Assembly: GCF_024228675.1 (NCBI RefSeq)
Contig: NZ_CP100461.1
Coordinates: forward strand, 2,477,398 to 2,541,397
Origin: Salinigranum marinum
Lineage (GTDB): Archaea > Halobacteriota > Halobacteria > Halobacteriales > Haloferacaceae
Direction of reading: 5' to 3'
Length of the DNA: 64,000 nt
A program made the position numbers and the translations under genes. The notes beneath the pieces were generated by a model. That model saw only the letters and a program-made list of their open reading frames with translations, was not told where the DNA came from and did no database searches. Of this stretch, positions 52,740-64,000 are shown piece after piece (the first letter of the stretch is position 1; every line of letters begins with the position of its first letter).

Positions 52740-55403
52740 ATGCCGCAAGGGATCGTCGGCGAGTTTCTCTCGCTCAAGGAGGAGACGGACGCGGATCTGT
52801 TGGCGATGCAGTGTGGCGATTTCTACGAGTTCTTCGCCGACGACGCCGAGACCGTCGGTCGGGAGCTGGATCTGAAAGTCTCGAAGAAGTCCTCCCACGG
52901 CTCGTCGTACCCGATGGCCGGCGTCCCCTTGGACGACCTCACGCCGTACCTGAAAGCGCTCGTCGAGCGCGGGTACCGAGTGGCCGTCGCCGACCAGTAC
53001 GAGACGGCGGGGGGCCACGCCCGCGAGGTGACGCGGGTGGTCACGCCCGGCACGATGCTGGAGACCTCCCGCGAGGACGCCCAGTACCTCGCGAGCGTCG
53101 TCCGCGAGGGCGACCGCTACGGGCTGGCGTTCGCGGACGTTACTACCGGGCAGTTCCTTGTCACGACGGTCGACGACCCCGACGCCGCCGGCTCGGAGGT
53201 GTACCGGCTCGACCCGGTGGAGCTCCTGCCGGGCCCCGACGTCAGGAACGACGACGCCTTCCTCCGGCGCGTCCGCGACCGCGAGGTGAAGCTCACGGCG
53301 TTCGAGACGGCGGCGTTCGCCCCCGGCCGGGCGCGACACGCCCTCCGCGAGCAGTTCGGCGACGTCGCGACGAGCGCCGGCCTCGACGACGAGGTCGCGA
53401 TCCGGGCGGCCGGAGCCGTCCTCGCCTACGTCACGGAGACGAACACCGGCGTGGCCGCATCGATGACGCGCCTGCGGACGTACGAGCCGAGCGACCACCT
53501 GACGCTCGACGCCACCACCCAGCGGAACCTCGAACTCACCGAGACGATGCACGGCGACCGAACCGGGTCGCTCGTCGACGTCATCGACCACACGGTGACG
53601 AGCGCCGGCGGCCGGCTGCTCAGAGAGTGGGTGACGCGCCCCCGCCGGGACCGCGCCGAGATCGGCCGCCGGTTGGACTGCGTCGAGGCCCTCGCGACCG
53701 AGGCGCTGGCCCGCGAACGGCTCCGCGACGCGCTCGACGGCGCGTACGACCTCGAACGGCTGGCGTCGCGGGCCGCCGGCGAGCGTGCCGACGCGTCGGA
53801 TCTGCTGTCGATCCGCGACACCCTCGCCCTCGTCCCGACGCTCGCGGAAGCGGTCGAGGGGAGCGCGCTCGCGGACTCCCCGCTCGCCGCGGTCGTCGCC
53901 CGTCCCGACCGCGACGGCGCGGCCGCCCTGCACGCCGAACTGGACGGGGCACTGGCGGACGATCCGCCGAAGACAGTGACGCAGGGCGGGCTGCTCCGGC
54001 GGGGATACGACGACGACCTCGACGACCTCATCGAACGACACACCGCGGTCGAGTCCTGGCTCGACGACCTCGCGGCGAGGGAGAAACGCGAGCACGGCCT
54101 CAGCCACGTGACGGTCGATCGGAACCGGACCGACGGCTACTACATCCAGGTCGGGAAGTCGGTCGCCGACGAGGTCCCCGAGGGCTACCGCGAAATCAAG
54201 ACGCTGAAGAACTCGAAACGGTTCGTCACCGACGAACTCGAGGAGCGAGAACGCGAGATCCTCCGGATCGAGGAGGCCCGCGCGGAGCTCGAATACGAGC
54301 TGTTCTGCGACCTGCGCGAGCGGGTCGGCGCGCGTGCGGAACTGTTGCAGGACGTGGGACGGACGCTCGCGGAGGTGGACGCGCTCGCCTCGCTCGCGAC
54401 GCACGCTGCGGGGAACGACTGGACGCGGCCGACCCTGACCGAGCCGGGCGGGCTCGACATCGAGGCGGGTCGGCACCCGGTCGTCGAGCGGACGACCGAG
54501 TTCGTCCCGAACGATCTCTCGATGGGCGCCGACCGGCGCTTTCTGATCGTGACCGGGCCGAACATGTCGGGCAAGTCGACGTACATGCGGCAGGCGGCGC
54601 TCATCACCCTCCTGGCACAGATCGGGAGCTTCGTCCCGGCGCGTCGGGCCGAGGTAGGCGTCGTCGACGGGATCTACACGAGAGTTGGCGCGCTCGACGA
54701 ACTCGCTCAGGGCCGCTCGACGTTCATGGTGGAGATGCAGGAGCTGTCGAACATCCTGCACTCGGCCACGGAGGAGTCGCTGGTCGTCCTCGACGAGGTG
54801 GGGAGGGGGACGGCGACGTACGACGGCATCTCCATCGCGTGGGCCGCCACGGAGTATCTGCACCAAGGCGACAATGTACTTGTAGATGGGAGCGGCGGTG
54901 GTCCAAAAACGCTGTTCGCAACCCACTACCACGAGCTAACGGAGCTCGGCGAACGCCTCCCGCGGGCTGCAAACGTCCATATGGCCGGCGAGGAGAACGA
55001 CGGCGAAGTGACGTTCCTGCGGACCGTCGAGGAAGGGCCTGCAGATCGGTCCTACGGGATTTACGTCGCGGAGTTGGCGGGCGTCCCAGAGCCGGTCACG
55101 AGACGGGCACGTGAGGTCCTCGAACTGCTGCAACAGGAGAAAGCAATCGACGTGAGAGGTGGATCTAAGGGAACCGAGCAGGTCGTCTTCGACCTCGGAA
55201 GCGGGCAGTTCGCGACAGGCGGCGGTTCGGAGGCGGTGATGGAAACAGTGGCGACGGAGGAAGCCGCCAGCGACGGCGGCGGACTCGACCCCGAACTCGA
55301 AGCCGTGCTCGACGAGTTACGCGGGATCGACGTCAACGACACCTCGCCGCTGGAGCTCATGGGGAAAGTACAGGAGTGGCAACGGCGGCTCGATACCGAG
55401 TAA
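52740..55403 (+). CDS. mutS: DNA mismatch repair protein MutS with a probably imported C-terminal end
   Basis: An 887-residue MutS1: mismatch-reading Phe-x-Glu in MQCGDFYEFF (about 22-31), connector and lever domains, Walker A GPNMSGKST (near 606-614), FVPARRAEVGVVDGIYTRVGA, Walker B VVLDEVGRGT and TLFATHYHELTEL. From about 54870 the base composition drops and codon use changes (for example AATGTACTTGTAGATGGG). A diverged, GC-richer version of this same tail lies at 56262-56711. The protein stays full length, so function is presumably kept. Confidence 0.95.
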   Translation: MPQGIVGEFLSLKEETDADLLAMQCGDFYEFFADDAETVGRELDLKVSKKSSHGSSYPMAGVPLDDLTPYLKALVERGYRVAVADQYETAGGHAREVTRVVTPGTMLETSREDAQYLASVVREGDRYGLAFADVTTGQFLVTTVDDPDAAGSEVYRLDPVELLPGPDVRNDDAFLRRVRDREVKLTAFETAAFAPGRARHALREQFGDVATSAGLDDEVAIRAAGAVLAYVTETNTGVAASMTRLRTYEPSDHLTLDATTQRNLELTETMHGDRTGSLVDVIDHTVTSAGGRLLREWVTRPRRDRAEIGRRLDCVEALATEALARERLRDALDGAYDLERLASRAAGERADASDLLSIRDTLALVPTLAEAVEGSALADSPLAAVVARPDRDGAAALHAELDGALADDPPKTVTQGGLLRRGYDDDLDDLIERHTAVESWLDDLAAREKREHGLSHVTVDRNRTDGYYIQVGKSVADEVPEGYREIKTLKNSKRFVTDELEEREREILRIEEARAELEYELFCDLRERVGARAELLQDVGRTLAEVDALASLATHAAGNDWTRPTLTEPGGLDIEAGRHPVVERTTEFVPNDLSMGADRRFLIVTGPNMSGKSTYMRQAALITLLAQIGSFVPARRAEVGVVDGIYTRVGALDELAQGRSTFMVEMQELSNILHSATEESLVVLDEVGRGTATYDGISIAWAATEYLHQGDNVLVDGSGGGPKTLFATHYHELTELGERLPRAANVHMAGEENDGEVTFLRTVEEGPADRSYGIYVAELAGVPEPVTRRAREVLELLQQEKAIDVRGGSKGTEQVVFDLGSGQFATGGGSEAVMETVATEEAASDGGGLDPELEAVLDELRGIDVNDTSPLELMGKVQEWQRRLDTE

Positions 55404-55593
55404 CGTCGTTCGTGTTGCGCGACGAACTGTCGATACGGGCGCGCGCTGACGCGTACAGCGGGAGTACTCGGCGGCGACGGCTATCGGCTGGGTTCCCGAG
55501 TCCCAGGGGAACTTGGCACCCCGGGTCTAGCGTCCAGCCGTCTCACAGCCGATGCCGTCACCTCGCTGTTGCTGGGGGACTCGATGGACCGCC
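55404..55593. other. Gap between mutS and the c-di-AMP synthase gene
   Basis: 190 bases between convergent genes. No gene or clear terminator hairpin was seen. Confidence 0.5.
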
Positions 55594-56166
55594 CTACTCC
55601 TCGGGTCGCCACCGGCCCCCGATCTCCTCGCGTGGATAGTCCTGATACGTACCGTCGAGGAACGTCGTGACGCGCCCGTCCTCTTCGCTGAGCGTGATCA
55701 CCCAGAGGACTTCCTCACGGATCGATGTCTCCAGCGCGCTCATGTGTTTGGCCCCCATCCACTCGGCGTATTCGAGTTTGTCAAACTTCTCGATGTACTC
55801 CCGGCTGGGGCTACGGACTCGGACCATCTGCTCTTGAACCGTCCCGTCCCCAGTCACGACGATCGCGCCGTCCCGGCTGAACGCGACGTCTCGGGCGACC
55901 CGCGTGAACGCCTCGGGCGAATCGGTGACGACCTGGCACCGCTCGACCGGCCACCGGTTCCCTCCCATCGGGTCGGTGTACTCGTCGAAACTGATCTCGG
56001 CGACGATCAGCAAGTACAGGCTCGGGCCACTCACGTACTGTTCGCCCCACTGGTCGAACCCCATACTCAGCGACTCGGCGCTGTACCTGATCTGATCCAT
56101 GAGCTCCTGACTGGTCGCATACCTCCCCAAGACGCGGTCGAGTTCCTCCATGCTGGTACACCTCAT
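55594..56166 (-). CDS. dacZ: DisA_N-domain diadenylate cyclase (DacZ-like)
   Basis: A 190-residue single-domain protein with the diadenylate cyclase fold. FSRDGAIVV holds the DGA motif (Asp99-Gly-Ala101), and VITLSEEDGRV holds the SEE element. The second nucleotide-binding motif, RHR in DisA, reads KHM (GAKHMSALETS, 140-142). Haloarchaeal DacZ makes c-di-AMP and is single-domain like this. An ATG at 56151 is an alternative start. It lies opposite to mutS inside a duplicated mutS tail and is AT-richer than its neighbours. Confidence 0.78.
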   Translation of the reverse strand: MRCTSMEELDRVLGRYATSQELMDQIRYSAESLSMGFDQWGEQYVSGPSLYLLIVAEISFDEYTDPMGGNRWPVERCQVVTDSPEAFTRVARDVAFSRDGAIVVTGDGTVQEQMVRVRSPSREYIEKFDKLEYAEWMGAKHMSALETSIREEVLWVITLSEEDGRVTTFLDGTYQDYPREEIGGRWRPEE

Positions 56167-56261
56167 GATCCGTCTCGTGTCTGTTTAACTACTGTCCCTC
56201 ACCGAGGCGCCATCGCGTGACTCGTCGGCCAGTTGGCCCCGTCTCGTTCTACCGGGGTTCC

Positions 56262-56711
56262 GTCGTGGCGAACGTCCACGTCGCTGCCGAAGAACGCGAC
56301 GGTGACGTGGCCTTCCTCCGGACGGTCGAGGAGGGCGCGACCGACGGCTCCTACGGGATTCACGTCGCCGACCTCGCGGGTGTGCCCGGGCCGGTCGTAT
56401 CGAGAGCGTCGGAGGTGCTCGACCGCCTCCGCGAGGAGAACTCCATCGAGGCGGAGGGGAGTTCGGGCGAGCAGTCGGAGTCGGTCCAGGCAGTGTTCGA
56501 CCTCGAGGGTGGCCAGTTCGCGGCAAGCGGTGGACCGGAGACGGCGACCGAGACGGCGACGACGGCGGAAGCCGCCAGCGACGGCGGCGAACTCGACCCC
56601 GGAATCGAGTCGGTCCTCGACGAACTGCGTGCGACCAGCGTCAACGACACCTCGCCGCTGGAGCTCATGGGGAAAGTGCAGGAGTGGCAGCGACGACTCG
56701 ATACCGATTGA
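56262..56711 (+). pseudogene. Displaced mutS C-terminal fragment
   Basis: Encodes [20 protein letters not shown] through [12 protein letters not shown], the same segment as the MutS end (about two-thirds identical by eye). The final 70 bases, coding [21 protein letters not shown], are almost identical to those at 55335-55403. No upstream MutS domain is joined. It is probably the original 3' end of mutS. Confidence 0.82.
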
Positions 56712-56746: not shown

Positions 56747-57070
56747 CTACTCGGGGCCGTCGAACTCCGGGAGGTCGTCGGCGTGCTCCCGCAGGAGCGC
56801 GAGCAGAGGGCGGATCTCCGCGAACCGAGGCCCCTTCGTCACCTGGTGTGCCTCCCTGTCCCAGGAGACGTATCCGTACGCGTCCAACTTTGGGAGGTGG
56901 ACGTGCCGCAGGAGCAACTGCTCGCGTTCGAGTGCGCTCCGAGACAGCCCACGGTCGTGGGGCGGGCTGTCCGGTCGCGGGTTCCGTTCCTCGAGAGCGA
57001 ACAACAGCCGTCGTCGTCGGACGTCGGCCAGCGCGTCGAACTGACGGTCGAGCGTAGAAAAGTCCCCCAT
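56747..57070 (-). CDS. Winged-helix regulator (DUF7344-like)
   Basis: A 107-residue protein, FSTLDRQFDALADVRRRRLLFAL, with HTH and wing (LPKLDAYGYVSWDREAHQVTKG). Start at the ATG at 57070; a short upstream extension is unlikely. It resembles the product at 26976. No partner gene is known. Confidence 0.72.
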   Translation of the reverse strand: MGDFSTLDRQFDALADVRRRRLLFALEERNPRPDSPPHDRGLSRSALEREQLLLRHVHLPKLDAYGYVSWDREAHQVTKGPRFAEIRPLLALLREHADDLPEFDGPE

Positions 57071-61810: not shown

Positions 61811-62401
61811 TCAGTCGCTACTGACCGTCAGCGTCCCCGAGAGGTCGTCTGTGGTCACCCCGTCGGTGCTGTCGACGATGATCTGGACGTTGATCACCTT
61901 CCCCGGAGGCAGTTCGTACGTCGCGGTGCCGGTCTGGCCGTTACTCGCCTTGCCGCCGCCGACCTGGATCACCTTCGTGTTCTTCTGGTTCGGGAACTTG
62001 TTCTGGTTCATCCGGAACTGCAGTGTCGAGCCGGTGCTCTGTCCGGCCGTGTCGGCCTCGTAGCTGATCGACACGGTTCGAGTGACCGTGTCGTGGTTGT
62101 GGATCTCGAAGGCCGGGTCCTGATGGGGCTGCCCCTCGCCCACCCGGTACACCGAGTCGACGTTGGTGCCGCCGGCGTTCCCGTCCGCGGTGAAGTCGAT
62201 CAGGAGTTCACCGTTCTCCTCGCGGACGACGGCACCGTCGGTCGTATCGACCAGACCGAGCAGACCGTTCGCGTCGTTGACCACGTTGACGTTCGCGTCG
62301 CGATCCATCGTCGAGCTGATCGAAGCGCCCGTGCCGAGCGCCGCGCCCGAGCCAGCCACCAGTGCACCGAGTCCGATTACGAATTTGCGTCGTTTGACCA
62401 T
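61811..62401 (-). CDS. Secreted DUF1102-type protein (paralogue 1)
   Basis: A 196-residue exported protein: VKRRKFVIGLGALVAGSGA signal, then GASISSTMDRDANVNVVND. The mature part is beta-rich (EIHNHDTVTRTVSISYEAD) and ends in LSGTLTVSSD. The leader has twin Arg (KRRKF) and could go through Tat. The family is found only in archaea as far as I know; function unknown. Its coding region starts 26 bases after paralogue 2. Confidence 0.85.
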   Translation of the reverse strand: MVKRRKFVIGLGALVAGSGAALGTGASISSTMDRDANVNVVNDANGLLGLVDTTDGAVVREENGELLIDFTADGNAGGTNVDSVYRVGEGQPHQDPAFEIHNHDTVTRTVSISYEADTAGQSTGSTLQFRMNQNKFPNQKNTKVIQVGGGKASNGQTGTATYELPPGKVINVQIIVDSTDGVTTDDLSGTLTVSSD

Positions 62402-62427
62402 CGTTGAAATTAACGTGGGTAATATCG

Positions 62428-63096
62428 TTATTCGCTGCTGACGGTCAGGGTACCCGAGAGGTCCTCGGACGTGGAGCCGTCGGTGACGGTACCGAAGCCG
62501 GGGTTCCCGTCGCCGGTGTCGACCTGGAACGATACGCCGACCTTCTCGCCCGAGTCGAGCGTGACGGTCGCCGTGTTGTCCCGCCCGGCCACGTTCGGGA
62601 TCAGAATCTCGTCCGTCACGTCGTTGCTGGCGTCGTCGTCCTCGTCCTGGAGCTGGAAGTAGATCTGTGAGCCGTTGAGGTTGCCGGTGACTGTGTACGT
62701 GAGCGTCACGTCGCGCGACACCGTGTCGTTGTTGACGACGTAGAACGCCGCGTCGTCGTACGGGTCGTCCCAGCCACCGTACGTTTCGTCCTGCAGCGCA
62801 TCGACTTCACCCGGCGGGAAATGGCTGAACTGCCCGACCTGATATCTGGAACCGACGTTGACACCGTCGGCGTTGCCGCCCGCGGTGAAGTCGATCAGCA
62901 GTTCGCCGTTCTGTTCGCGGACGACATCGCTCTGTGTGTCGCTGACGATCGCGAGCAGCCCGTTGCTGTCGTTGACCACGTTGACGTTCGCGTCGCGATC
63001 CATCGTCGAGCTGATCGAAGCGCCCGTGCCGAGCGCCGCGCCTGAGCCAGCCACCAGTGCACCGAGTCCGATTACGAATTTGCGTCGTTTGACCAT
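62428..63096 (-). CDS. Secreted DUF1102-type protein (paralogue 2)
   Basis: A 222-residue member with the same leader, differing from paralogue 1 in DNA at very few positions over the first 130 bases. The mature region diverges (FYVVNNDTVSRDVTLTYTVTG) with the same NNDTV/LSGTLTVSS frame. Its stop is 26 bases before paralogue 1, and it is preceded by paralogue 3 at 21 bases, so the three form one operon. Confidence 0.85.
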   Translation of the reverse strand: MVKRRKFVIGLGALVAGSGAALGTGASISSTMDRDANVNVVNDSNGLLAIVSDTQSDVVREQNGELLIDFTAGGNADGVNVGSRYQVGQFSHFPPGEVDALQDETYGGWDDPYDDAAFYVVNNDTVSRDVTLTYTVTGNLNGSQIYFQLQDEDDDASNDVTDEILIPNVAGRDNTATVTLDSGEKVGVSFQVDTGDGNPGFGTVTDGSTSEDLSGTLTVSSE

Positions 63097-63117
63097 TGGT
63101 AGAGAGAGTTGAATGGA

Positions 63118-63789
63118 TCAGTTGCTGCTGATCGTCAGCGTCCCGCCCAGATCCTCTTGCTTGGTCGCTCCGCTCCCGGTCGTGTCCACGAGGATGGAGA
63201 AGCCGATCGCGCCGGCGGATTGGAGCCGGTCGTCGCGGTTCCCCCCGGCAGCGCCGGTCGTGAACGTCGCAGACGGGTTCGTCGAGCCGCTCTCGACGAC
63301 GAGGTTCTTCGTCGGCTCGCCGTTCCCGACGAGGTTGTTCGGGGCCGGGCGTGCCTGAATGATCATCTTCGAGCCGTTCGAGTTCAGCGAACCCGTGTGC
63401 TGGTATTCGACTGTGACACTGCGCGGAACCGTGTCGTTGTTGACGACCTGGAACGCGGGGTTCACGGTCGGGCTGTTCCCGTCCGTGTTCATCGGAGCGC
63501 CCACGTCGAAGAGCGAGCCGATCTGGTACTGGGAGTTCACGTTGACACCGTCAGCGTTGCCGTTGGCGGTGAAATCGATCGTGAACTCACCGTCGCCCGT
63601 CTCTCGGAGGACGTCGCTCTCGACGTCCTCGGAGACGACGATCGCGAGCAGCCCGTTGCTGTCGTTGACCACGTTGACGTTCGCGTCACGATCCATCGTC
63701 GAGCTGACCGAAGCGCCCGTTCCGAGGGCAGCACCCGAGCCAGCCACCAGTGCACCGAGTCCGATTACGAATTTGCGTCGTTTGACCAT
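63118..63789 (-). CDS. Secreted DUF1102-type protein (paralogue 3)
   Basis: A 223-residue first gene of the three-gene set, same leader and VVNNDTVPRSVTVEYQHTG and LGGTLTISSN. The Met of the conserved VKRRKF leader (63789) is taken as start; a longer frame adds 30 non-leader residues. The upstream promoter must lie in 63790-63900. Confidence 0.85.
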   Translation of the reverse strand: MVKRRKFVIGLGALVAGSGAALGTGASVSSTMDRDANVNVVNDSNGLLAIVVSEDVESDVLRETGDGEFTIDFTANGNADGVNVNSQYQIGSLFDVGAPMNTDGNSPTVNPAFQVVNNDTVPRSVTVEYQHTGSLNSNGSKMIIQARPAPNNLVGNGEPTKNLVVESGSTNPSATFTTGAAGGNRDDRLQSAGAIGFSILVDTTGSGATKQEDLGGTLTISSN

Positions 63790-64000
63790 GTTGGAGTTCA
63801 CCGTTGTTGTCCGCGCGCCCCGGACGCCCGCTCGGGCCGTCCCGAGCCGTCGTCCACCGGACGCGCTTACCCAACCCATGGACTGATACCCCCGTTTACA
63901 TGAGGAGACTGAGCGGAGCGCTGGAACCGCTTGTATCGCCGCTGACAGCGGTTGTGGAGCCGGCAGGCCGAGCGTACCACCGGCTTAATCGGTCGCTACA
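63790..64000. other. Window-end region upstream of the DUF1102 operon
   Basis: Contains the divergent promoter region of paralogue 3. A short open frame from ATG 63900 reaches the end of the window (ATGAGGAGACTGAGC...) but lacks recognisable content. Confidence 0.4.

Follow-up and report, generated by a model that had tools for sequence, protein, structure and literature searches.

A partly foreign mutS 3' end and a displaced native tail in Salinigranum marinum point to mutS as a probable recurrent integration site in haloarchaea

The window analysed here, a 64,000-nucleotide stretch of Salinigranum marinum DNA, contains a mutS gene (52740..55403, plus strand) with an intact reading frame of 887 codons and all five Pfam MutS domains, whose product is 82-86% identical to the MutS proteins of genus-mates. 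Beyond its stop codon lie a minus-strand gene for a 190-aa DAC-domain (diadenylate-cyclase-like) protein (55597..56166), a junction region (56167..56267) without similarity to the element terminus described below, and, again on the plus strand, a second mutS 3' end (56268..56711) that matches MutS residues 743-887 (E 4e-52). The frame of this orphan is open, with ~26 codons missing at its 5' side as counted from the start of the foreign tail described below. A DUF7344 gene (56750-57064, minus strand) comes next, followed by a NUDIX gene and mutL, both intact. The two tails, spaced 865 bp apart, repeat each other directly in two blocks, one of 129 nt (74% DNA identity) and one of 230 nt (81%); over their last 70-180 bp they are 82-91% identical. 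A sequence-only reading had already picked out the second tail beyond the one in frame to 55403, the near-identity of the last 70 bases (91% by our measurement) and the single opposite-strand gene between the tails (one credible gene, with a weak PF02457 DAC match), and these observations hold. Elsewhere in the window (61811-63879, minus strand), three tandem paralogues encode a secreted protein of ~200-250 aa, 46-51% identical to one another.

A background scan of 1.2 Mb of haloarchaeal DNA (1164 ORFs, with tandem paralogues and one small ORF excluded) found downstream same-strand C-terminal copies at three places only: mutS in the window, and mutS and thpR in a species of another genus (G035 in our survey of 519 haloarchaeal genomes, designated G000-G518). 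The tail duplication in the window is not due to chance. A small duplicated ORF at the DAC locus of G062, where mobile genes are abundant, was set aside as a paralogue.

Sliding comparison distinguishes three segments within mutS. Up to ~54830 the gene is mostly 0.7-0.94 identical to three genus-mates; from ~54855 to ~55225 identity to these falls to 0.56-0.81 and that to G035 rises to 0.77-0.87; and from ~55225 to the stop codon the sequence is native-like again, reaching 0.94 to both the genus-mate G003 and the orphan. The middle segment (54855..55225, plus strand, its ends accurate to some tens of bases) begins right after the EYLH codons and is also marked by its base composition, GC3 being 0.685 in 54855-55226 vs 0.89-0.97 in all windows across the head, in agreement with the AT-richer 3' part noticed earlier. 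It further includes a linker, HQG(D/N)N(V/L)LVDG(S)GGGPK, common to the in-frame tails of the window (HQGDNVLVDGSGGGPK) and G035 (HQGNNLLVDGGGGPK) and absent from the window's genus-mates, which read NEI[RG][CA]K. The remaining native-like end (55226..55403, plus strand) is 0.80-0.94 identical to G003 and 0.71-0.94 to the orphan.

Phylogenetic analysis assigns different partners to the two tails. The in-frame tail pairs with that of G035 (support 98/97), the orphan groups with G001 (86/86), a member of the window's genus to whose MutS tail it is 84% identical, and the MutS head falls within its own genus (100/100). As judged from these comparisons, the orphan is the native tail and the in-frame tail is foreign in part, over ~370 bp. 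The proposal that incoming DNA had replaced the tail of MutS thus stands as to the frame and must be narrowed as to extent, the last ~180 bp being native-like; this accounts for the near-identity of the tails at their 3' ends. The trees also agree with the further proposal that the native tail had stayed behind, beyond the cargo gene. Pairwise dN/dS of orphan tails (0.13-0.39) matches or slightly exceeds the values of intact tails, which would mean either that the displacements are young or that constraint on the orphans persists. The DNA separating mutS from NUDIX-mutL varies in the genus, amounting to ~7 kb in G001 (L074), filled with unrelated genes, to 3.3 kb in G003 (L076) and to almost nothing in G002; orphan tails are absent downstream of mutS in all three.

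The mutS gene of G035 has the same foreign tail type and the same entry point as that of the window, with other cargo: one long gene between the tails, encoding an 885-aa STAND-type P-loop/TPR protein, which gave no convincing match to defence families. The displaced native tail of G035 picks up at NEVRAKTLFATHYHEL, where the foreign tail had started, with no detectable loss. The right junctions of G035 and the window are not alike, and a shared right end was rejected, as the similarity is not significant. On contig 8 of G035 (L082, 5311-7501), downstream of thpR (RNA 2',3'-cyclic phosphodiesterase-like) come a DAC gene, a zinc-ribbon gene and then a second thpR, frameshifted and without its first ~20 codons, a layout like that at mutS with a different target gene. 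This thpR duplication is real, with foreign and native copies indistinguishable. DAC cargo has therefore been involved in such tail-duplication events more than once, at mutS in the window and at thpR in G035.

The cargo protein itself scores 21 bits against PF02457, under the cut-off of 27, and the same profile matches all 16 of its homologues (best E 9.5e-9). Its predicted fold (AlphaFold2 and Foldseek) is that of a DAC domain, with a CdaA match at E 2.4e-7, and a DGA motif is invariant among the homologues, nearly all of which carry KHM or KHL where RHR is usual. Profile, predicted fold and motif together place it in the DAC (DisA_N) family PF02457, and we regard it as an accessory DAC-domain protein and putative diadenylate cyclase. 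Haloferax volcanii has just one dacZ, which shares an operon with mscS2 (PMC6741144), unlike the cargo gene; the dacZ product resembles the cargo protein in having a DAC domain with the DGA motif. The cargo differs from it in its length of 190 aa, its patchy distribution (111 of 170 family genomes), its frequent occurrence in several copies and the KHM/KHL that replaces RHR, and the earlier naming of the gene as dacZ is at most tentative. Homologues lie in many contexts without conserved flanks, including haloarchaeal plasmids, among them one of Halorientalis marina (88% identical). None adjoins an intact mutS in the genomes searched. A cassette with conserved ends was ruled out, homology being limited to the gene and its promoter. 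Tandemly paired DAC-domain genes, some containing stop codons, are found in several family genomes (L251-L255).

Insertion into mutS recurs in other haloarchaea with different cargo; a tail swap delivering a c-di-AMP synthase gene had appeared unfamiliar in the sequence-only reading. In G281, of another family, 39.5 kb of DNA interrupts mutS at the same codons as in the window; a tyrosine integrase gene (PF00589) adjoins the new mutS tail, and the orphan tail is the native one. The interior of this element encodes a TFB, a complete type I restriction-modification system, an ArdC-like protein and a HerA/TraC-like ATPase, the domain of the latter having been tested on the copy in G461, 77% identical to that of G281. 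Two further members of this genus carry inserts in mutS: one of 54 kb with MCM, methylase and nuclease genes (G461), and one of 3.6 kb with an orphan stub of 18 residues (G459). The in-frame tails of all three group with G458/G462 (100/99) and the heads with G358/G460. In a third family, G400 bears the C-terminal remnant of an integrase directly after the mutS stop codon, 64% identical to the G281 integrase and the closest relative of it that was found. A distant relative (39%) of the G281 integrase lies ~15 kb downstream of mutS in G289 (contig 6, 732086-733171), where no orphan tail was detected.

The inserts of G281, G461 and G459 share a conserved right terminus, ~150 bp before the displaced tail (homologous, with 0/500 shuffles), which ends at mutS and is present in one copy per genome; it was not found in the uninterrupted relatives G358, G460, G458 and G462. 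The same terminus occurs away from mutS at one place in G361 and at two in G267, where it likewise continues into mutS-like sequence (around LFATHYHE.T.L), clearly so in two of the three places; the element itself therefore carries mutS sequence. In G361 the terminus adjoins an element ATPase 74.5% identical to that of G281, an arrangement expected for joined element ends and at most an indirect sign of an excised circular form, and these copies in G361 and G267 would look like attP sites carrying a now-decayed mutS tail. A weaker, inverted copy of the first ~60 bp of the terminus lies 300-1400 bp away at five loci (L122, L300, L314, L315 and L316), resembling subterminal inverted repeats. The terminus profile gave no match to the window or to G035, and no integrase gene lies between the two mutS tails of either, the DAC gene being alone there in the window. 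As to the crossover, several placements fit between EYLH and THYHEL and no single att core is fixed; the putative core lies in conserved mutS codons, the right junction of the window is deleted, and the foreign linker places the crossover in the window upstream of KTLFATHYHEL. In the attB region, for example in G127 (L125), the AKTLFA codons of mutS are spanned by CGCGAA-GACGCTG-TTCGCG, whose inverted arms flank 7 bp of spacer and which is a possible recombinase-type core site.

Across the survey, a displaced mutS tail or stub was found in five of the 519 genomes (the window's, G035, G281, G461 and G459), a lower bound, since stubs as short as the one in G459 go undetected by the searches; one more genome, G400, has the integrase remnant. 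A second mutS tail in G127 was discounted because it sits at a contig edge. Searches for free haloarchaeal MutS tails gave no close match on plasmids, phages and viral contigs, and matches to bacterial MutS only on genome contigs.

Site-specific, tail-restoring integration at mutS is well supported for the elements of G281, G459 and G461, and mutS is probably a recurrent integration site of this kind in haloarchaea. For the window, the sequence comparisons support the entry of outside DNA into mutS by recombination, with the reading frame preserved and the native tail remaining past the cargo. The question is by which route, and one alternative is a one-sided homologous recombination in which a donor fragment from another haloarchaeon, consisting of a mutS tail and a DAC gene, entered by a left crossover in the conserved part of mutS while its right side was end-joined to the broken gene, no integrase being involved. 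Several points would be in keeping with such an event: chromosomal DNA is readily exchanged among haloarchaea, the in-frame tail combines foreign and native stretches, and neither the window nor G035 has an integrase or a shared terminus. However, the native tail of G035 resumes at the start of the foreign tail without detectable loss, unrelated inserts in other genera hit the same mutS codons, and the donor arrangement of a DAC gene beside an intact mutS occurs in no genome searched; we consider this route a serious alternative, though the less likely one. Far less can be said for a within-lineage duplication of the 3' end of mutS whose copies later diverged and received a DAC gene between them. 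The 82-91% identity of the last 70-180 bp is the observation in its favor, yet the two tails, far from being equally diverged from all homologues, have different closest relatives (G035, 98/97; G001, 86/86), their GC3 values are sharply different and genus-mates lack the foreign linker. Trees and identity profile already contradict a duplication of this sort, which we regard as highly improbable.

We also weigh a broader reading, to which we give a probability of roughly 0.55: mutS would be a dedicated attachment site whose elements carry and swap in their own MutS C-terminal part, up to ~180 residues including the end of the ATPase domain, delivering defence or signalling cargo, with the window as one such event. 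That the window holds a tail-restoring insertion, degenerate or non-autonomous, is the explanation we favour as more likely than not: the inserted DNA restored the mutS frame (887 codons with the foreign tract), and the native 3' end, which groups with the genus, stands on the far side. Because the window copy has neither integrase nor shared terminus, its own route can only be inferred, as it is for G035, from the site and the foreign tail that both have in common and from the displacement of the native tail; lacking an integrase or matching terminus, the two are not counted as members of the integrase-element class. The comparisons show that DNA entered mutS within or just upstream of the codons EYLH|NE, bringing an in-frame foreign MutS segment and one DAC-domain gene and pushing the native tail downstream. 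The event probably began as an integration of the G281-family kind, by an element related to that of G035, which later lost its integrase or never had one. The orphan is short of ~26 codons, and therefore the original right junction is gone; the right terminus of the element would have been lost together with this part of the old tail. The two 3' ends could then have grown alike by gene conversion, or through a donor of the same genus, either of which may explain native-type sequence in both.

Integration that restores a gene end has a precedent in E. coli, where e14 and phage 21 integrate in icd and displace its end. As there, a protein-coding gene is entered, a new in-frame 3' end is supplied and the native end stands at the far side; the icd end, however, is short and nearly identical, whereas that of mutS extends up to ~180 codons and is strongly diverged, the target differs, and the window copy has no integrase. 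Integrated elements of archaea occur in 3'-distal parts of protein-coding genes (PMC6563490), and reviewed targets include HMG-CoA reductase for the virus BJ1 (PMC8371274). The mutS insertions share with these the use of coding genes as attB for archaeal integrases and the restoration of the frame by element sequence, but restored ends are reported there as short, with 8 nt in one worked example, and mutS is absent as a target from both papers (PMC6563490; PMC8371274). The streptococcal SpyCI islands likewise land in a mismatch-repair locus, entering the 5' end of mutL and toggling its expression off and on (PMC4129442); in the window, unlike in SpyCI, the insertion lies in the 3' third of mutS, mutL is intact, the mutS frame is kept and a new C-terminus is gained. 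No report of mutS as an integration target was found in the open-access literature. Restoration of gene ends by integrating DNA is already known, in most cases with ends that are short and nearly identical; in the mutS insertions it is a long and diverged part of a mismatch-repair enzyme that moves together with inserted DNA, in at least three haloarchaeal families.

The mutS insertions account for orphan MutS tails and provide candidates for attB, attP and integrase. In well-studied bacteria, MutS keeps diverged sequences from recombining freely, so that an element altering the MutS C-terminus could change the mutation rate of its host or its gene exchange. If mutS is indeed a dedicated site, mobile DNA would be repeatedly rewriting a mismatch-repair protein of haloarchaea.
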